Source: an uncultured bacterium
Lineage (GTDB): Bacteria > Bacillota > Clostridia > Oscillospirales > CAG-272
Reading direction: 5' to 3'
Length of the DNA stretch: 51,775 nucleotides
NCBI GenBank assembly: GCA_949293405.1
Contig: CASFDI010000072.1
Coordinates: forward strand, 1-51,775
The notes under the pieces are model-generated. The model was not told where the DNA came from. It searched no databases and saw nothing but the letters and a program-made list of their open reading frames with translations. Positions 12,356 through 20,623 of this stretch are shown here, one piece after another. Positions within the stretch are counted from its first letter, which is position 1. The number at the start of each line of letters is the position of its first letter. A program made the translations under genes and the position numbers.

Positions 12356-13633
12356 TCAGGGGCGTTTGCTTCCGCAGTCGGGACAGAATTTATCGTCTGC
12401 ATCGTTCGCCCGACCGCATTTCGGGCACGCCCAACCTGCAGCGGGGCGCGGCTTGCCGCATTCTGAGCAGAATTTACCGGTATTGACCGCGCCGCAGGAG
12501 CAGGTCCAGCTTTCCGCTGCTGCCGGGCGGGGTTTGCCGCATTCCGAGCAGAATTTACCGGTATTGACCGCGCCGCAGGCACAGGTCCAGCCCTCTGCCG
12601 CGGCCGCTTTCCGCTGTGCCGCTTCGTGCTCGCGGCTGAGCTGTGCCTGATTGGAGGCGCTGGCCGCCGCAAACAGGTTTCCTCCTGCCTGCATGCCCAT
12701 CCCCAGGCCCATGAACGCCGCAGTACTGCCGTTGCTGTTGCTGCCCGCCGCCTCAAAGCCGCGTGCCATAGCCCCCTGCACATATCCTTCACGCACTGCC
12801 GCGTCACCCAGCATAGCGCCCTGGTTGCGCATGTTGATCAGTTTCTGCGACTCTTCGTCATAAGAAATGCTCGCAATTCCGACCGACTGGATCTCCATGC
12901 CGCGCATGCCCTTCCAGTCTCCGTCCAGCGTATCCGCCATGTATTTGGAAAGTTCGCGTCCTTTGGACGCCACATGAGAAATCCGGATGCCGTCCACCGA
13001 CATCTGGTTGATCGCGCTCTGCAGCGCTTCCAGGAACTCGTTCAGATACTGCTCATTGATATCCGTGATGTCCACGCGCGTGCTGTTGCGCGGTACTGCT
13101 TCCGCATAAAACAGCAGAGGATTCGTGATCTTGACGGAATAGGTGCCGTGCGCACGCAGGAACAATTCCGAATTGTAGAAATTGTCAAAATAGTTGAGCG
13201 GACTGCGGGTGCCGAACTTGATTCCTTTGATCTCCTGCAGGTTGATATAGAAAACCTGCTGCTTGCGCGAAGGAACACCGCTGTACCGCACGCGTCCGAA
13301 CGCCTCAGCGAGGGAAGCGCCGAACTCGCCGTTGAACAGCGAGGGGGACGAACTGTTGTCCACCTTGAAATACCCGGGCTCCGCGGTGTAATCCACCACT
13401 TTTCCCCCGTCCACAAGCAGCATGAACTGATTGTCGTATACATGAATGACGGAGCCGTTGCTGATGATGTCCTCGGTCCCTTTTTTATTGGTAAACCGAC
13501 GGTCACCCGGACGGACAGTTACCCCCTTGGTAAACACGGTGGTATCGGACATGTTGTCCGCTTCGATGACTTCCTGCCACTGGTCCGCAAGGCCGCCTCC
13601 GACGGCGCCGAGCACTGCTCTGATGATTCCCAT
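12356..13633 (-). CDS. SPFH-domain protein with C-terminal zinc ribbons (YdjI-like)
   Basis: A 425-residue protein with an SPFH/band-7-like domain (about 20-300), an Ala/Gly-rich helical linker, and three Cys4 zinc ribbons at the C terminus: CACGAVNTGKFCSECG, CSCGAVNTGKFCSECG and CPKCG...CPDCG. The first two ribbons come from an 81-bp tandem duplication. It matches YdjI of Bacillus, needed there to link PspA to the YdjG/YdjH membrane pair. I chose ATG 13633 (AAGGAG upstream); the frame is open further upstream but would run through the promoter. First gene of the six-gene unit. No PspA (YdjF) gene is present nearby. Confidence 0.85.
   Translation of the reverse strand: MGIIRAVLGAVGGGLADQWQEVIEADNMSDTTVFTKGVTVRPGDRRFTNKKGTEDIISNGSVIHVYDNQFMLLVDGGKVVDYTAEPGYFKVDNSSSPSLFNGEFGASLAEAFGRVRYSGVPSRKQQVFYINLQEIKGIKFGTRSPLNYFDNFYNSELFLRAHGTYSVKITNPLLFYAEAVPRNSTRVDITDINEQYLNEFLEALQSAINQMSVDGIRISHVASKGRELSKYMADTLDGDWKGMRGMEIQSVGIASISYDEESQKLINMRNQGAMLGDAAVREGYVQGAMARGFEAAGSNSNGSTAAFMGLGMGMQAGGNLFAAASASNQAQLSREHEAAQRKAAAAEGWTCACGAVNTGKFCSECGKPRPAAAESWTCSCGAVNTGKFCSECGKPRPAAGWACPKCGRANDADDKFCPDCGSKRP
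12455..12610 (-). repeat. 81-bp tandem duplication encoding two zinc ribbons
   Basis: Two units beginning at 12455 and 12536 (period 81 = 27 codons) are nearly identical over about 55 bases. They encode the first two zinc ribbons of the SPFH protein. The third ribbon is clearly divergent, so the duplication is recent. Confidence 0.85.
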
Positions 13634-13681: not shown

Positions 13682-13710
13682 ATTATACAACATCGCCACC
13701 CGGATTGCAA
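13682..13710 (-). promoter_or_regulatory. sigma-A-type promoter of the SPFH operon
   Basis: On the minus strand: TTGCAA (13705-13710), 17-base spacer, TATAAT (13682-13687), followed by AGGGATG. It should drive the six genes down to 8693. No sigma-W-type site is seen, unlike Bacillus ydjFGHI. Confidence 0.8.
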
Positions 13711-13760
13711 GAGAGAATCCTTGCCGCCGCTTCGGGCATCTCAAAAAAATAAAAAAACTC

Positions 13761-13790
13761 TTGACAAGACGCACCCGGTTGTGCTATGAT
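13761..13790 (+). promoter_or_regulatory. sigma-A-type promoter of the aromatic amino-acid operon
   Basis: TTGACA at 13761-13766, 18-base spacer, TATGAT at 13785-13790. Transcription would start near 13797, about 25 bases before the leader peptide start codon and about 200 bases before aroF. Confidence 0.8.
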
Positions 13791-13821
13791 AGGTGCAACA
13801 TTGAGAAAAGGAGCCTTTGGC

Positions 13822-13899
13822 ATGCGTCACAACTGCTTTTTCGGGTTTGCATATTACTTTTACTTTTTCCGGAAAGTAAAAGCGATTTGTGCTGCCTGA
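13822..13899 (+). CDS. Phe/Tyr-rich leader peptide of the aromatic attenuator
   Basis: A 25-codon ORF with its own AAGGAG site just upstream. Residues 6-16 read FFGFAYYFYFF: six Phe and three Tyr in eleven residues, with no Trp. This is the classic pattern of a control-codon leader peptide whose translation speed senses charged tRNA-Phe and tRNA-Tyr. The stop (13897-13899) lies just after the 5' strand of the antiterminator and 32 bases before the terminator stem. It precedes aroF, whose operon makes Tyr and Phe precursors. Too short for gene-finders. The peptide itself probably has no other function. Confidence 0.85.
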   Translation: MRHNCFFGFAYYFYFFRKVKAICAA

Positions 13900-13970
13900 A
13901 AGAGAACGCTTGCCCGGGATCCGGGATCAGAGGAGTCTGCAGTGCAATCGCTGCAGGCTCCCTTTTTTTA
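13857..13970 (+). promoter_or_regulatory. attenuator: leader hairpin, antiterminator and terminator
   Basis: Three stems can be drawn. (a) 13857-13866 pairs with 13873-13882 over the Tyr/Phe codons. (b) Antiterminator: 13882-13895 pairs with 13939-13951, 13 pairs with one bulged T and two G-U pairs. (c) Terminator: 13932-13942 pairs with 13951-13961, 11 bp with one G-U, then seven T at 13963-13969. Stems b and c share 13939-13942 and 13951, so they exclude each other. A ribosome waiting at the aromatic codons leaves the 5' strand of b free and lets transcription proceed; a ribosome at the stop codon covers it and lets c form. Confidence 0.85.
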
Positions 13971-13999
13971 TCATTTACACAAACAAGGAGTATAGAATC

Positions 14000-15004
14000 A
14001 TGGTTGCGGTCATCAAACAGGGCACTACGGAAAAACAGTTGGGAGAGCTGGTCGCCTGGCTGGAGGATATGGGGCTTACCGCCCATATCTGCAAAGGACA
14101 GCAGCAAACCATCGTCGGACTGATCGGAGACACCAGCCGGGTGGATGCAGAATTACTTGAAAGTCTGTCCATCGTGGACTCAGTCAAACGCATATCCGAA
14201 AAATTCAAGAGCGCGAACCGCAAGTTCCATCCGGACGACACGGTGGTGCGCGTCGGATCAGTCGCTATCGGAGGAGGCAATTTCGCGGTGATCGCGGGCC
14301 CCTGCTCTGTGGAAAGCCCCGAGCAGATTTCGGGTATTGCCGAAGCGGTCAAGGCGGCGGGAGCCACCCTTTTGCGCGGCGGCGCATTCAAGCCCCGCAC
14401 CTCCCCCTACGACTTCCAGGGTCTGCGCGCACAGGGCATTGAACTGCTGCTGCATGCCAAGGAAAAGACGGGCATGCCCATCGTCACCGAAATCATGGAC
14501 GCCTCTCACCTGCCCCTGTTCGAAAATGTGGATGTCATTCAGGTGGGCGCACGCAACATGCAGAACTTCGAGTTGCTCAAGGAACTGGGCATGATCCGCA
14601 AGCCCATTCTGCTCAAACGCGGACTGGCAAACACGCTCTCCGAACTGCTCATGAGCGCCGAATACATCATGGCAGGCGGCAATGAACAGGTGATCCTGTG
14701 CGAACGCGGAATCCGGACCTTCGAGACCTACACGCGCAATACGCTGGACATCTCCGCCGTCCCCATGCTCAAGGAACTGTCGCATCTGCCGGTCGTGGTG
14801 GATCCCTCACATGCCACCGGCATGTCGCGCCTGGTGCGCCCGATGGCGCTTGCCGCTGCTGCGGCAGGAGCTGACGGATTGATGATCGAGGTACACAACA
14901 ATCCGCAGCAGGCGCTGTGCGACGGCGCACAGTCTCTGACGCCCGCCGAGTTTGCCGATGTGATGAAGAGTGTCACCAAAGTCCGGGAGGCGATCCGGTC
15001 ATGA
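14000..15004 (+). CDS. aroF: 3-deoxy-D-arabino-heptulosonate 7-phosphate (DAHP) synthase
   Basis: A 334-residue type I-beta DAHP synthase joining phosphoenolpyruvate and erythrose-4-phosphate, the first step of the shikimate pathway. Residues 1-70 form the ferredoxin-like regulatory domain known from Thermotoga and Clostridia enzymes, which binds Tyr/Phe for feedback control. The catalytic barrel shows AGPCSVES (metal Cys), KPRTSPYDFQG, GARNMQNFELLKELG and DPSHATG (metal His). I chose ATG 14000 (AAGGAG nine bases upstream) over a start inside the attenuator. The stop overlaps tyrA by ATGA. Control is thus probably double: attenuation of transcription and feedback through the N-terminal domain. 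Confidence 0.95.
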   Translation: MVAVIKQGTTEKQLGELVAWLEDMGLTAHICKGQQQTIVGLIGDTSRVDAELLESLSIVDSVKRISEKFKSANRKFHPDDTVVRVGSVAIGGGNFAVIAGPCSVESPEQISGIAEAVKAAGATLLRGGAFKPRTSPYDFQGLRAQGIELLLHAKEKTGMPIVTEIMDASHLPLFENVDVIQVGARNMQNFELLKELGMIRKPILLKRGLANTLSELLMSAEYIMAGGNEQVILCERGIRTFETYTRNTLDISAVPMLKELSHLPVVVDPSHATGMSRLVRPMALAAAAAGADGLMIEVHNNPQQALCDGAQSLTPAEFADVMKSVTKVREAIRS

Positions 15005-15834
15005 ACATCGGTGTGGTGGGGCTGGGACTGATCGGCGGCTCGGTTGCCGCAGCGATGCACGGAGCCGGGCACACGGTTTACGGGACAGACCGGGATCATG
15101 CGGCCTGCTCTCTTGCCGTGGTACGCGGACTGATTACGGATTTTCTGACCGATGACAGAATTGCCGCATGTGAGGCACTGATCATCGCACTGTATCCGGA
15201 AGAGACCTGTGCGTGGCTGCGCGAACACCGTGACACCGTCGCACCCGGAACGCTGGTCATGGATACCGCGGGGGTAAAGCGGGCGGTATGTGACACCGGA
15301 TTTGAACTGGCAAAAGAGCGGGGGTTTACCTTCGTAGGCATACATCCGGTAGCGGGAAGTGAAAAAAGCGGCACCGCAGCCGCAACACCCGACCTGTTCC
15401 GGGGCGCATGTTGCGTCATGGTGCCCCCGGTCTATGACGATATCCGTCTGCTCGAACGGGTCAAACATGCCCTCTCTCCGCTCGGATTCGGAAAATGGAT
15501 GGTAACCACCGCCGAAAAGCATGACCGGATCATTGCCTACACCTCACAGTTGCCGCATGTAATCTCCAACGCCTATGTTCAGAATCCTACTTTTTCCGAG
15601 CGGGAAGGCTTTTCGGGCGGCAGTTTCCGGGATCTGACGCGCACTGCCGCGCTCAACGCCCCCCTGTGGAGCCAGCTGTTTCTGGAAAACCGCGAATCCC
15701 TGACCGGAGAACTGGACCGTCTGATTGCAACGCTCACGGCATACCGCACCGCCATTTCCGAAAACGACCCGACGCGACTGGAAGAACTGATTGCCGCCGG
15801 AGAAAGGAATATCCATGCAGACCGTAGCCGTTGA
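15001..15834 (+). CDS. tyrA: prephenate dehydrogenase
   Basis: A 277-residue NAD-dependent prephenate dehydrogenase that makes 4-hydroxyphenylpyruvate for tyrosine. The N-terminal Rossmann motif GLGLIGGS is at residues 8-15, the catalytic His lies in GIHPVAGSEKSG near 117, and the dimer-domain motif SQLPHVISNA is near 183. It lacks the C-terminal ACT domain found in some Firmicutes enzymes, so feedback inhibition by Tyr may be weak or work elsewhere. It overlaps aroF by four bases and aroB by 20 bases, giving strong translational coupling. Confidence 0.93.
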   Translation: MNIGVVGLGLIGGSVAAAMHGAGHTVYGTDRDHAACSLAVVRGLITDFLTDDRIAACEALIIALYPEETCAWLREHRDTVAPGTLVMDTAGVKRAVCDTGFELAKERGFTFVGIHPVAGSEKSGTAAATPDLFRGACCVMVPPVYDDIRLLERVKHALSPLGFGKWMVTTAEKHDRIIAYTSQLPHVISNAYVQNPTFSEREGFSGGSFRDLTRTAALNAPLWSQLFLENRESLTGELDRLIATLTAYRTAISENDPTRLEELIAAGERNIHADRSR

Positions 15835-16873
15835 CACCGCTTCCCCCTACCGTGTTCATATCGGACCGGATGTGCTCGGGTCCTGCGCGTCTCTGGTAAA
15901 GCGGCAGACCGAGCGCGCGGTACTGGTGACCGACCGCACGGTGGGACCGCTGTATGCCGGGCGCGTACTGGACGCACTGGCTCCCCTGTGCCGCCAAACG
16001 CCCCTGGTGTTTACTCTTCCGGCGTCGGAAGAGGCAAAAAGCGGAACCTGGTATCTGTCCCTGCTCTCCTTTCTTGCTGAGCATCGGATCAGCCGTTCCG
16101 ACCGGCTGTGTGCTCTGGGCGGCGGAGTGGTCAGCGACCTGTGCGGCTTTGCCGCCGCCACCTATCTGCGCGGCATCCGGTTTGTGACCCTGCCCACCAC
16201 GCTGCTTTCCGATGTGGATGCTTCCGTGGGCGGAAAAACCGCCATCAACCTACCAGAAGGAAAAAATCTGGCGGGAGCCTTCTGTCAGCCCGAAGCGGTG
16301 CTGATTGACACCCGGTTTCTGAGCACCCTTCCGGATGAGATTTACCGGGACGGCTGCGCGGAGGTACTCAAATACGGTCTGCTGGAAGGCGGGGAACTGC
16401 TCACGCGTCTGGAATCTGCCCCCTTGCCCGACCACAGAGAAGACCAGAACCTGCAGAGCGATATCATTACAGAGTGTGTGCGCATCAAGGCACGCATTGT
16501 CTCCCGGGACGAGCACGACACCGGCGAGCGTGCCCTGCTCAATCTGGGTCATACCCTGGGGCACGGTGTGGAACAGGTCAGCGGCTTTACCATCCCGCAC
16601 GGCAGGGCTGTGGCCATCGGCATGGCGGCCGCAACGCGTGCCGCCGCTCATCTGGGGCTGTGCGATCCGGCACTGGTCGGCCGGGTGGAGCGCCTGCTCA
16701 CCGCTTACCGGCTGCCGGTGCGCTCGCCCTATCCGGCGTCCGATCTGCTGGACGCCATGTACCGGGACAAGAAAGTGAGCGGAGACCGGATCACCCTCAT
16801 CCTGCCCAAAGCGCCGGGCAACTGCATCCGGCAGTCCTTCCCGGTAGAACAGCTGGCGGAGGTGTTCGGATGA
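15815..16873 (+). CDS. aroB: 3-dehydroquinate synthase
   Basis: A 352-residue AroB, converting DAHP to 3-dehydroquinate with NAD and a divalent metal. Family motifs are complete: GGGVVSDLCGF near 107, the PTTLLSDVDASVGGKTAIN strand near 130, EVLKYGLLEG near 185 and NLGHTLGHGVEQ near 246, which carries metal-binding His residues. ATG 15815 lies within tyrA and has AAAGGA upstream; eight residues further upstream is a less likely start. The stop overlaps aroA by ATGA. Confidence 0.95.
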   Translation: MQTVAVDTASPYRVHIGPDVLGSCASLVKRQTERAVLVTDRTVGPLYAGRVLDALAPLCRQTPLVFTLPASEEAKSGTWYLSLLSFLAEHRISRSDRLCALGGGVVSDLCGFAAATYLRGIRFVTLPTTLLSDVDASVGGKTAINLPEGKNLAGAFCQPEAVLIDTRFLSTLPDEIYRDGCAEVLKYGLLEGGELLTRLESAPLPDHREDQNLQSDIITECVRIKARIVSRDEHDTGERALLNLGHTLGHGVEQVSGFTIPHGRAVAIGMAAATRAAAHLGLCDPALVGRVERLLTAYRLPVRSPYPASDLLDAMYRDKKVSGDRITLILPKAPGNCIRQSFPVEQLAEVFG

Positions 16874-18129
16874 ATCTGCACATTCTGCACGGCGATGTTC
16901 CGGAGCAAATACCCGCCTGTCCTTCCAAATCCTATGCCCATCGCGGCATGATTGCAGCCGCGCTGGGTGAGAGCGAAACGCTGGTGGCGTGCGGTGCACC
17001 CAACCGGGATATCGAAGCCACCGCGCGCGTGCTGCGTGCACTGGGCGCCCGGGTGGATGCCGTCCCGGAAGGCTTCCGGATTTCCCCGATCACCGCTGTT
17101 CCCACACAGGCATATTGCGATGCGGGGGAGAGCGGTTCCACCCTGCGCTTTCTGGTTCCGGTGGCGGCCGCTCTGGGATGCCATGCCCGCTTTGTCGGGC
17201 ACGGCAAACTGCCCGGTCGTCCCATGGAGCCGCTGTATGCAGCGCTGCGTGCCGGCGGCGCCCGGATCACGCCGCTGCCCGATGGGGTGGAGGTATCGGG
17301 CAGGTTGCGTGCCGGAACTTATACGGTTACGGGGGAGGTTTCCTCCCAATTCATCAGCGGACTGCTGTTTGCCCTGCCGCTTCTCTGCGGTGAAAGCCGT
17401 CTGATCCTGACCGGGCAGATCGCTTCCCTTCCCTATGTGGAGATGACCTGTCAGGTTCTCAGCCGGGCCGGTATCACCCTTGCGCGTACACCGGACAGTT
17501 TCACTGTTGCGGGCGGACAGCGCACACACAGCGCATCGGTTTTCGATGTAGAAGGGGACTGGTCGGGCGCTGCTTTCTGGCTGGTTGCAGGGGCTATCGG
17601 AAAACATCCGGTAACGGTTACCGGTCTCTGTCCCGATTCCCTGCAGGGCGACCGCGCTATTCTGGACCTGCTCGGACGCATGGGTGCGCAGGTGCATACC
17701 TGCGGCAGGAGCGCCACCGTTTCCCCTGCCCCTTTGCATGCGCTTGACATCGATGCAACCCAGATTCCCGATCTGGTACCGGTGCTGGCGGTTGCCGCTG
17801 CGGCGGCAACCGGCACCACGGTCATCCGGGGCGCCGCGCGTCTGCGGATGAAGGAGAGCGACCGGTTAGAGACTACCGCCTCCCTTCTGGGTGCACTGGG
17901 CGGGCAGGTACGGCAAACCGATGACGGACTGATCATCACCGGAACCGGTTCCCTGACCGGCGGTACCGTGGACGGTGCGGGCGATCACCGCATCGTCATG
18001 AGCGCCGCAATTGCCTCTCTGATTGCTTCCGGTCCGGTAGAGATCCTGGGGGTGGAAGCAGTCGGAAAATCCTACCCGGAATTTCCGGACATTTTCTCTG
18101 CGGCGGCACAGGTCCGCCGTACCGACTGA
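16870..18129 (+). CDS. aroA: 3-phosphoshikimate 1-carboxyvinyltransferase (EPSP synthase)
   Basis: A 419-residue EPSP synthase, transferring enolpyruvate from PEP to shikimate-3-phosphate. Typical elements are CPSKSYAHRGMIAAAL near 17 (the Lys of the PEP site), the SGSTLRFLVPVAAALG strand near 90, the G-R-P-M motif near 116 and RMKESDRLETTASLLGALGG near 326. The start ATG overlaps aroB by four bases (ATGA); the same frame is open upstream inside aroB but that part is not coding. The Gly of the glyphosate-contact region (usually LGNAGTA) reads DAGESGSTLR here, the arrangement seen in class II-like enzymes. Confidence 0.94.
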   Translation: MNLHILHGDVPEQIPACPSKSYAHRGMIAAALGESETLVACGAPNRDIEATARVLRALGARVDAVPEGFRISPITAVPTQAYCDAGESGSTLRFLVPVAAALGCHARFVGHGKLPGRPMEPLYAALRAGGARITPLPDGVEVSGRLRAGTYTVTGEVSSQFISGLLFALPLLCGESRLILTGQIASLPYVEMTCQVLSRAGITLARTPDSFTVAGGQRTHSASVFDVEGDWSGAAFWLVAGAIGKHPVTVTGLCPDSLQGDRAILDLLGRMGAQVHTCGRSATVSPAPLHALDIDATQIPDLVPVLAVAAAAATGTTVIRGAARLRMKESDRLETTASLLGALGGQVRQTDDGLIITGTGSLTGGTVDGAGDHRIVMSAAIASLIASGPVEILGVEAVGKSYPEFPDIFSAAAQVRRTD

Positions 18130-18143
18130 CAAAGGAGCAGAAA

Positions 18144-19229
18144 ATGGCAAGTACATACGGAACGCATCTGCGGGTTACCCTGTTCGGGACCTCGCACGGC
18201 CCTGAAATCGGGGTGGATATCGACGGACTTCCCGCCGGGGAAGCGGTGGACCTGCACGAACTGGATACCTTCCTCGGGCGCCGCAGAGCGGCGGGACGCG
18301 CCTATGCCACCCGGCGGCGCGAGCCCGACCTGCCCGAATTCCAGAGCGGACTGACCCCCGACGGCCACACCGACGGCTCCCGCCTGCATGCCATCATCCG
18401 CAACACAGACACGCGCAGCCGGGATTACCGGGAACTGGCTGATCTGCCCCGTCCTTCGCATGCCGATTTCACCGCTTACGCCAAGCATTACCCGCCCGAA
18501 ATGATGGCAGGGGGAGGTCCTTTCTCCGGACGGCTGACCGCCCCGCTGTGTATCGCAGGCGGCATTGCCAAACAGATTTTAGCGCGCCGCGGCGTGACGG
18601 TATGTGCGCACGCACTGCGCATTGCGGGCATATCCGATACTCCTTTCGACCCGGTTTCCGTGGGTCCCGATGACGCGGCGCGGCTTGAGGCACAAGATTT
18701 CCCCACGCTTTCCGCACAGGCGGGAGAGCAGATGCAGCAGGCGATTGCCGAAGCGGCGGCAGAGCGGGATTCGGTTGGAGGCATTGTGGAGTGTGCGGTG
18801 ACCGGTCTTGCGCCCGGCAGTTGCGGGGATGCCCTGTTTGACGGCCTGGAGGGTCGGATTTCTCTGGCGGTATTCGCCATTCCCGCGGTCAAGGGAATCG
18901 CGTTCGGCGCGGGATTTGAGAGTGCCGATCTGCGCGGTTCGGAAAATAACGATCCCTTCCGGATGCAGAACGGCCGTGTGGTCACCGAAACCAACCGTCA
19001 CGGGGGGATCCTGGGGGGCATCGCAAGCGGTATGCCTGTGCTCTTCCGGGCAGCCTTCAAGCCCACCCCGTCCATCTTCCGCGAACAGAAAACCGTCTCG
19101 CTCTCGCGCAGAGAAAACGCCACGCTCACCCTGACCGGCAGACATGACCCCTGCATTGTTCCGCGCGCCGTACCCGCGGTTGAGGCGGCGGCCGCCATTG
19201 CAGTCCTGGATGCCCTGCTGGCCGGGTAA
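18144..19229 (+). CDS. aroC: chorismate synthase
   Basis: A 361-residue FMN-dependent chorismate synthase. Motifs include LFGTSHGPEIGV at the N terminus, RRAAGRAYATRRREPD near 50, GGGPFSGRLTAPLCIAGG near 119, NRHGGILGGIASGMPV near 283 and GRHDPCIVPRAVPAVEAA near 332. It starts 14 bases after aroA with GGAG upstream. It needs reduced FMN; no flavin reductase lies in this operon, although one lies in the divergent unit (9918-10499). Confidence 0.95.
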   Translation: MASTYGTHLRVTLFGTSHGPEIGVDIDGLPAGEAVDLHELDTFLGRRRAAGRAYATRRREPDLPEFQSGLTPDGHTDGSRLHAIIRNTDTRSRDYRELADLPRPSHADFTAYAKHYPPEMMAGGGPFSGRLTAPLCIAGGIAKQILARRGVTVCAHALRIAGISDTPFDPVSVGPDDAARLEAQDFPTLSAQAGEQMQQAIAEAAAERDSVGGIVECAVTGLAPGSCGDALFDGLEGRISLAVFAIPAVKGIAFGAGFESADLRGSENNDPFRMQNGRVVTETNRHGGILGGIASGMPVLFRAAFKPTPSIFREQKTVSLSRRENATLTLTGRHDPCIVPRAVPAVEAAAAIAVLDALLAG

Positions 19230-19416: not shown

Positions 19417-20535
19417 ATGGATACCGTTACCGAACTGTATGAAACCGAAAAACAACTGACAGAAACATTTGCGCGTTATGCACGGCTGAGCCGCGAACTG
19501 GCAAAGCAGGGTATCCCGGCCGACAGCAGCTATCAGACGCATGAGCGGCAGGGAGCGCTGATCCGTGCCCTGCCCGAACCGGACCGCCGTTTCGCAGCTT
19601 CTCTGCTGGAAGATCTGACCGGACTGAACGCCGCCATCCGGCGCGGAACCGAGCACCCCTCGGAGCCGTATGCCGATCTGATTGGCAAGGCGCTGGCCTC
19701 CTCTCCCGATATGCTGCCCGCTGACCTGCGCATTGCCTGCCAGGGAACCGAGGGCGCCTATTCCCAGAGCGCGGCCGAATGCCTCTTCACCCGGCCCTCC
19801 ATCTTCTTCTGCAATACCTTTGAAGGGGTGTTCCGTGCGGTGGATCAGGGACTGTGCCAGTACGGTGTACTTCCGATTGAGAACAGCACCGCCGGATCGG
19901 TCAGCACGGTGTACGATCTGATGATGACCTACCGCTTCTCGATTGTGCAGAGCTGCCGGCTGAAGATCAACCATGCCCTGCTGGCAAAACCGGGCGTACG
20001 CCTCTCGGATATCCGGGAAGTATACTCTCACCCCCAGGCGCTGGAGCAGTGCAGCGACCTGCTTCAGAGCATGGGCGTGCGCGCATGCCCCACCCGCAAC
20101 ACCGCCGTTGCGGCGCAGCAGGTGGCCGGCTCGGAGCGGACCGACATTGCGGCGCTTGCCTCCGCGGATTGCGCCCGGCTCTACGGTCTGCAGATTCTGC
20201 AGGACGCAGCCCAGAATGCCGGCAATAACCACACCCGCTTCATCTGCATTTCCAAGGAACCCCAGATTCTCCCGGGTGCTGACCGCACCGCCATTACCCT
20301 GACCCTGCCGCACCGTCCCGGAACCCTGTTCCGCCTGCTTTCGGTAGTCAACGCATTCGGAGTCAGTCTGGAAAAGCTGGAGAGCAGACCTTTGCCCGAC
20401 CGCGATTTTGAGTTCCGGTTCTATTTCGATCTCAAAGTCCCGGTTTACGATCCTGCCCTTCCCCAGCTTCTGGGTATGATGGAGTCGTCGTGCGACTCGT
20501 TCCGCTACCTGGGCACTTACCGCGAATATGTGTGA
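19417..20535 (+). CDS. pheA: prephenate dehydratase (P-protein) with a degenerate chorismate mutase domain
   Basis: A 372-residue PheA-type protein. Residues 1-90 are helical like an AroQ chorismate mutase, but the expected catalytic residues (Arg11, Arg28, Lys39 in E. coli numbering) are not found when the helices are aligned. Residues about 105-285 form the prephenate dehydratase domain (CQGTEGAYSQSAA, LPIENSTAGSV, YSHPQALEQC, and NNHTRFICI with the catalytic Thr-Arg-Phe). About 290-370 is an ACT domain (TLPHRPGTLFRLLSVVNAFGVSLEKLESRP), the usual Phe-binding feedback site. It makes phenylpyruvate. Last gene of the operon, 187 bases after aroC, with AAAGGA upstream. Confidence 0.9.
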   Translation: MDTVTELYETEKQLTETFARYARLSRELAKQGIPADSSYQTHERQGALIRALPEPDRRFAASLLEDLTGLNAAIRRGTEHPSEPYADLIGKALASSPDMLPADLRIACQGTEGAYSQSAAECLFTRPSIFFCNTFEGVFRAVDQGLCQYGVLPIENSTAGSVSTVYDLMMTYRFSIVQSCRLKINHALLAKPGVRLSDIREVYSHPQALEQCSDLLQSMGVRACPTRNTAVAAQQVAGSERTDIAALASADCARLYGLQILQDAAQNAGNNHTRFICISKEPQILPGADRTAITLTLPHRPGTLFRLLSVVNAFGVSLEKLESRPLPDRDFEFRFYFDLKVPVYDPALPQLLGMMESSCDSFRYLGTYREYV

Positions 20536-20588: not shown

Positions 20589-20623
20589 AGGAGGCCGCAG
20601 TGCATCATGCACTGCGGCCTCCT
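20589..20623. terminator. palindromic terminator between pheA and glf
   Basis: Perfect 17-bp arms (20589-20605 and 20607-20623) followed by GTCTTTT. It lies between convergent genes and probably ends the aromatic operon and the glf transcript. Confidence 0.7.

Follow-up and report, generated by a model that had tools for sequence, protein, structure and literature searches.

The aromatic amino acid operon in the 51,775-nt stretch of DNA analysed here (the window) is very probably controlled by a ribosome-mediated transcription attenuator of the trp/pheL type, which would sense the charging of both tRNA-Phe and tRNA-Tyr. The grounds for this reading are the anatomy of the leader, its conservation in relatives, the covariation of its stems and its modelled ribosome geometry, from which we infer the regulation, the response to Phe and Tyr and the kinetic order of events. 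In the enterobacterial pheL and trp-type attenuators, a short ORF enriched in codons for the amino acid under control is combined with overlapping antiterminator and terminator structures, ahead of genes of the pathway. The window likewise has an ORF with end-product codons, an overlapping antiterminator and terminator, and pathway genes downstream. Unlike the pheL and trp-type systems as these are generally described, it mixes Phe and Tyr codons, and the controlled unit is a shikimate/Phe/Tyr operon headed by a DAHP synthase.

In the mechanism that we propose, the ribosome would trail RNA polymerase along the leader. With charged tRNA-Phe and tRNA-Tyr plentiful, it would reach the stop codon and cover the 5' strand of the antiterminator (region 2), upon which the 3' strand (region 3) would pair with region 4 to form the terminator, and the transcript would end at about 170 nt. 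With either charged tRNA scarce, the ribosome would stall at one of nine aromatic codons, open the leader's own fold and leave region 2 free. Region 2 would then pair with region 3 ahead of the synthesis of region 4, and the polymerase would continue into aroF-tyrA-aroB-aroA-aroC-pheA. Without translation, the predicted fold of the window's leader pairs part of region 2 with the aromatic-codon stretch, so that the default here would be termination.

Anatomy of the leader and its operon

The features of the leader and of the operon are collected in Table 1. The promoter-like site has a TG before its -10 box, and from its position a transcript start at about 13797 is expected, which would give the short attenuated transcript its length of about 170 nt. 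Residues 6-16 of the leader peptide include six Phe and three Tyr, so that the leader is a translatable ORF in which end-product codons are clustered. No other ATG ORF of 10-50 codons in the 51.8-kb window, whichever strand is read, has at least six Phe or Tyr per ten residues; the one exception is a longer in-frame version of the leader ORF itself, which starts at an ATG within the -10 box. An initial annotation had named the promoter, the AAGGAG, the 25-codon ORF and its six Phe and three Tyr, all of which were confirmed on the sequence. A further promoter-like site on the minus strand (TTGCAA-17-TATAAT, window 13682-13710) points away from the attenuator and precedes a divergent ORF that ends at 12356.

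Table 1. Positions of the leader elements and operon genes in the window
Feature	Position	Strand	Basis or remark
Sigma-70-type promoter-like site, TTGACA-18-TATGAT	13761..13790	+	11/12 consensus positions matched
Leader ORF ribosome-binding site, AAGGAG	13808..13813	+	8 nt before ATG 13822, read from sequence
Leader ORF, 25 codons, MRHNCFFGFAYYFYFFRKVKAICAA*	13822..13899	+	stop codon 13897-13899
Control codons F6 to F16	13837..13869	+	each aromatic codon permissive for antiterminator in modelled A site
1:2 hairpin, 11 pairs, aromatic codons CUUUUACUUUU with GAAAGUAAAAG	13857..13882	+	predicted fold
Antiterminator 5' strand (region 2), GCGATTTGTGCTGC	13882..13895	+	fold, pairing across aligned loci
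Antiterminator 3' strand (region 3), GCAGTGCAATCGC	13939..13951	+	fold, pairing across aligned loci
Intrinsic terminator, 13-pair stem 13932-13944/13949-13961 and T7 13963-13969	13932..13969	+	computed
aroF-type DAHP synthase, first structural gene	14000..15004	+	PF00793, PF18152 (ferredoxin-like domain and DAHP synthase I)
tyrA, prephenate dehydrogenase	15001..15834	+	PF02153, PF20463 (scan from 14992); start codon by eye
aroB, 3-dehydroquinate synthase	15815..16873	+	PF01761, PF24621
aroA, EPSP synthase	16870..18129	+	PF00275
aroC, chorismate synthase	18144..19229	+	PF01264
pheA, prephenate dehydratase and ACT	19417..20535	+	PF00800, PF01842; ACT below curated cut-off
Terminator-like hairpin after pheA, 16 pairs	20589..20623	+	computed

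The antiterminator consists of 13 pairs, two G-U pairs among them, and one bulged U, and a single C separates the terminator stem from its T7. The 3' strand of the antiterminator lies wholly inside the terminator hairpin, so the two structures are mutually exclusive. For both, the initial annotation had given the coordinates, the shared bases and the T7 correctly, but its terminator stem needed extension by two pairs. The 1:2 hairpin, in which aromatic codons take part, abuts the antiterminator strand, and G13882 is common to both. Compared with 200 dinucleotide shuffles, the leader RNA (13797-13970) folds with z = -5.6; for the stretch 13910-13970, z = -4.5. As an isolated duplex, the window's antiterminator is weaker than its terminator (-13.3 versus -23.5 kcal/mol), as it is in 78 of the 82 loci with leader and terminator described below. 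The free leader, and also its 3' part, is predicted to adopt the terminator form. Together, the weaker antiterminator and the terminator form of the free leader mean that the switch must act kinetically, during transcription, by analogy with classical attenuators, which likewise operate during transcription.

The Pfam domains of the downstream genes belong to Phe and Tyr synthesis, the pathway that matches the codons of the leader. The first four genes overlap by a few bases (the tyrA start overlaps the aroF stop by 4 bp), aroC follows after 14 bases and pheA after about 190. The domain matches in pheA leave residues 1-105 without assignment, and the hairpin behind this gene is a possible operon end.

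Conservation and covariation among relatives

A similarity search with the leader DNA gave a match in 2 of 59 genomes, its own and one with a 26-base stretch (G004). As the leader DNA barely matched elsewhere, AroF was chosen as the anchor for fetching loci. AroF was present in four of 60 congeneric genomes, own included, and a Phe/Tyr-rich leader precedes aroF in all four (the window, L005, L006 and L007). Among the 19 congeneric genomes with a completeness of 90% or more and a contamination of 5% or less, AroF was found in three. Loss of aromatic synthesis, or use of a different DAHP synthase, looks common in the window's genus.

We defined a Phe/Tyr-rich leader as an ORF with at least six Phe or Tyr in 10 residues, within 330 nt of aroF. 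Such a leader was found in 82 of 108 non-redundant 330-nt regions (the window, three congeners, named records and order genomes), compared with 2/108 reverse complements and 31/2160 dinucleotide shuffles. The 108 exclude two loci whose upstream sequence is shorter than 330 nt (L026, L085) and three duplicates (L089, L110, L114). Further genomes of the order gave 64/80 (62/78 after removing two repeats of named records), with 1/80 in the reverse complement and 19/800 in shuffles. These 80 were taken down the ranked AroF list after the loci already used, with one match per genome, and some matches were skipped: partial ones, those at contig edges and, for no particular reason, G037, G039 and G171. 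In other orders of the same class, 33 of 60 genomes have a leader, from 21 of 34 families (reverse complement 0/60, shuffles 15/600); in other classes of the phylum, 7 of 20 have one, a count made without shuffle control. The 60 and 20 genomes were drawn chiefly from the top of the ranked AroF lists, and none of the fractions given here, those for the order included, represents a random sample. With 400 nt per locus, 110 non-duplicate loci divided into 82 with leader and terminator, two with a leader and no terminator found (L031, L083) and 26 with no leader; this set includes L026, with only 57 nt upstream, and L047, which was admitted at score 5. No leader reached the cut-off in 26/110, 16/80, 27/60 and 13/20 loci across the sets, and some of the loci scored as leaderless have a score-5 leader (e.g., L061 and L099). 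The leader ORF is thus conserved as Phe/Tyr-rich, whereas its sequence is not. A chance origin of the arrangement was rejected, as leader and stems are conserved in relatives and the shuffles score far lower.

Three of the loci come from records labelled Treponemataceae, Thermoguttaceae and Lentisphaerae (L022, L067 and L072), with a Phe/Tyr leader and a terminator before a window-like aroF. They may reflect transfer of operon and attenuator, or mis-binned or misnamed assemblies.

The codon composition of the leaders is mixed throughout. At least two Phe and at least two Tyr codons are found in 81 of the 82 loci with leader and terminator, and Trp is present in four. Adjacent aromatic residues are more often of different kinds (YF and FY 316) than of the same kind (YY and FF 143). 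Mixed Phe and Tyr codons fit an operon that carries both tyrA and pheA, and the 81 loci are consistent with a leader that would sense the charging of both tRNAs. Two order relatives (L196, L199) have another leader type, RFTSFGYPRFFWAWDFCACNF, which scores 5 and includes Trp codons; leaders of this type would perhaps sense all three aromatic amino acids.

To follow the antiterminator through the 82 loci, its two strands were aligned separately, by sequence alone. The pairs hold in 74.5% of cells, compared with 68.2% when the 3' blocks are permuted (sd 1.0, maximum 71.2 in 500 permutations) and 29-60% when the strands are slid. Several pairs use three to six pair types; 13884-13949, for example, occurs as GC, AT, TA, CG, GT and TG. 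We also used a 23-row alignment of loci picked by eye for similar layout from the 82, in which row L006 is misaligned near the antiterminator and was kept and counted as it stood. Here, the antiterminator and 10 of the 11 pairs of the 1:2 hairpin, counted jointly, are paired in 85.0% of cells versus 79.2% after shuffling (0/500). Cells changed on both sides number 32 versus 11.8 shuffled (0/500), and pairs changed on both sides 10, a count reached in 16/500 shuffles, versus 6.6 shuffled. In the antiterminator, 5 of 13 pairs changed on both sides. The terminator is paired in 93.8% of cells versus 75.1% shuffled (0/500), and 11 of its 13 pairs have changes on both sides. When strands were swapped between loci, the energy of own combinations averaged -14.2 kcal/mol versus -11.4, and the own strand ranked first in only 4/82 loci and in the top 5% in 20/82. 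The conservation of the motif itself (about TGATTTNTGCTGC with GCAGTNAAATCA) leaves this test little power to discriminate. The mutually exclusive antiterminator and intrinsic terminator are therefore conserved by covariation. On the sequence side, the initial annotation had made its reading depend on a leader ORF conserved in relatives and on covariation in both stems; the relatives provide the one in 82 of 108 regions and the other in their aligned strands.

Ribosome position and competing explanations

Region 2 lies a median of 17 nt (IQR 13-21) past the last aromatic codon in the 82 loci. The spacing is within 6-27 nt in 76 of them, compared with 40% of shuffled strands; region 2 was sought only past the last aromatic codon, a constraint that favours this geometry and that the shuffles share. 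The stop codon, in turn, shifts by about 50 nt relative to region 2 (5th-95th percentile). The TGYTG string of this strand lies inside the leader ORF in 28 of the 82 loci, after the stop codon in 22, and is absent from the searched stretch in 32. Where it lies inside the ORF, it is read in three frames (17, 8 and 3 loci), for example as ICAA, LCC or VLQ. A strand that is read in three frames or lies past the stop codon means that the RNA, and not the peptide, is conserved.

The placement of the control codons relative to region 2 was modelled by putting each codon in the A site of a ribosome whose leading edge lies 15 nt further on, and folding the emerged RNA as far as the end of region 3. 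For the window, this fold contains the antiterminator when any of codons 3 to 18 occupies the A site, a range in which all nine aromatic codons fall; when the A site holds a codon from Val19 onwards, the stop codon included, it does not. This agrees with the proposal of the initial annotation that a ribosome at the stop codon covers region 2 and a stalled one frees it. A ribosome placed with its A site on the last aromatic codon permits the antiterminator in 74 of the 82 loci, one placed on the stop codon in five. Of the aromatic codons, 617/712 are permissive, compared with 55/587 codons that lie four or more past the last aromatic one. Permissive codons of both kinds, Phe and Tyr, occur in 73, 75 and 75 of the 82 loci (footprints of 12, 15 and 18 nt), and seven loci have no permissive aromatic codon at any footprint. 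In a ribosome-free model, the antiterminator forms in 37 of the 82 loci, although not in the window, so a default-off state is not general.

The same attenuator could respond to Phe alone. Some of the Tyr codons could be there for structure, since the F-Y-F stretch (CUUUUACUUU) doubles as the U/A-rich region 1 strand of the 1:2 hairpin. Indeed, CTTTTACTTT pairs with AAAGTAAAAG in 84.5% of cells, 5 of the 9 main-helix pairs show changes on both sides (23 rows), and Phe TTT is the commonest aromatic codon (366/770 in the 82 leaders). However, at least two Tyr occur in 81 of the 82 leaders, those with other region 1 sequences included, permissive Tyr codons occur in 75 of 82 loci, and the window's operon contains tyrA, which makes a Phe-only response unlikely. 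The leader could also act through its peptide, and nascent peptides can contact the exit tunnel. Arrest of the TnaC kind, with a free amino acid or other small molecule sensed instead of tRNA charging, is nevertheless improbable: by eye, no position is conserved beyond Phe/Tyr richness, the peptides differ in length, stop position and C-terminus, and what is conserved towards the C-terminal end is the RNA element that is read in three frames. The ORF is short and hydrophobic and has a good ribosome site, as a functional small peptide followed by an ordinary terminator would have. This explanation has next to no likelihood given the low peptide conservation, the near-constant spacing to region 2, the covarying antiterminator and the place before aroF. 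We rejected both peptide functions, since the peptide sequence varies and RNA and spacing are conserved.

A T-box or metabolite riboswitch with an incidental ORF deserves mention because T-boxes are common in Firmicutes, and the window's own genome (92% complete) has seven T-box matches (RF00230) at E <= 0.001, four of them over the cut-off. One of the weaker ones, at 77.7 bits against a gathering score of 93, lies before pheS (TIGR00468, 230.5 bits, just under the cut-off of 237.45). Genes behind the other matches include leuA-like, TrpB-like, PaaK-like phenylacetate-CoA ligase and acyl-CoA ligase genes, and valS and asnS, both named by eye. None of the seven is in the window or on its contig, and neither the window nor 40 related loci have an Rfam 15 match at the gathering score. 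At 13700-14050, no amino-acid leader family reached its gathering score in a search of Rfam with E up to 10; the best match was McaS (18.5 bits versus 42), and Thr_leader gave 12.6 bits versus 55 on the minus strand. A T-box or an RNA known to Rfam was thus rejected at this operon, and direct control of this kind, which would also leave the Phe/Tyr enrichment of the ORF without explanation, is highly improbable. A crude T-box core motif upstream of aroF, with no leader, was found in two of the 60 class genomes (L236, L237), where an exchange of sensing system is possible. Among these sampled class relatives, the leader peptide is the commoner of the two before aroF (33/60 versus 2/60).

Relation to described leaders

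The nearest description that we found is uORFC-13-1 (PMC8632094), compared here by its published features. As presented there, it lies upstream of aroF and has a uORF with at least one Phe codon, a possible promoter, a terminator and a further stem, and attenuation was proposed. The window has the same placement features, namely the position upstream of aroF, Phe codons in a uORF and a terminator. The passages on uORFC-13-1 name Phe only, whereas the window's leader contains Phe and Tyr, and they report the motif only from Acholeplasma and from environmental sequences of unknown organism (24 representatives).

Leader-peptide attenuation in other Gram-positive bacteria has been described for a His leader before hisS paralogues in bacilli (PMC2965389), for hisZ in C. 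difficile and the B. cereus group and lysQ in L. lactis (PMC4833913), and for the Leu-rich ilv attenuator of S. aureus (PMC5794164). These leaders share the type of control with the window's leader, but serve other amino acids and operons. T-boxes, in contrast, bind tRNA directly and use no leader peptide; in the B. cereus group, Tyr biosynthesis responds to tRNA charging by way of T-boxes (PMC2494555), while the window's operon has a leader and no T-box match. For the Actinobacteria studied in PMC1262725, the relevant portion of that report gives no conserved RNA structures for Phe or Tyr operons. Our searches of open-licence literature turned up no account of a Phe/Tyr leader in front of aroF for Clostridia.

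The mechanism is therefore already known; its Phe/Tyr form is new here and apparently widespread, and the mixed codons are its most interesting aspect. We think it likely that these leaders belong to an undescribed, Clostridia-wide family of dual Phe/Tyr attenuators, which, in this part of the Firmicutes, would be the ancestral or the prevailing means of controlling DAHP synthase and would work as an OR gate for two tRNAs. In such a family, the RNA strand and the spacing from codons to antiterminator would be conserved while peptide and stop codon drift, and tRNA-Phe would be sensed in another way by the T-box at pheS. In the literature consulted, leader-peptide attenuation is described mainly from Proteobacteria and Actinobacteria, with scattered cases in Firmicutes; the present loci suggest that it is a widespread control of entry into the shikimate pathway in Clostridia. 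Carriers among records that are not labelled as metagenome bins are Sporobacter termitidis DSM 10068, Angelakisella massiliensis, Yanshouia hominis and Emergencia sp., and the leaders supply short regulatory parts that are open to test.

The attenuator reading implies close coupling of transcription and translation at the leader, and such coupling is disputed for Bacillus subtilis. Judged from sequence, one genome would read the charging of tRNA-Phe twice, with two RNA devices: through a T-box at pheS and through a leader peptide at the aromatic operon. Two of the seven T-box matches lie on one contig of the window's own genome (G000:C58; L120 and L121), before the acyl-CoA ligase and the PaaK-like phenylacetate-CoA ligase, one over and one just under the gathering score. 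These targets look unusual for a T-box and suggest an amino-acid-linked control of acyl and aryl acid activation.
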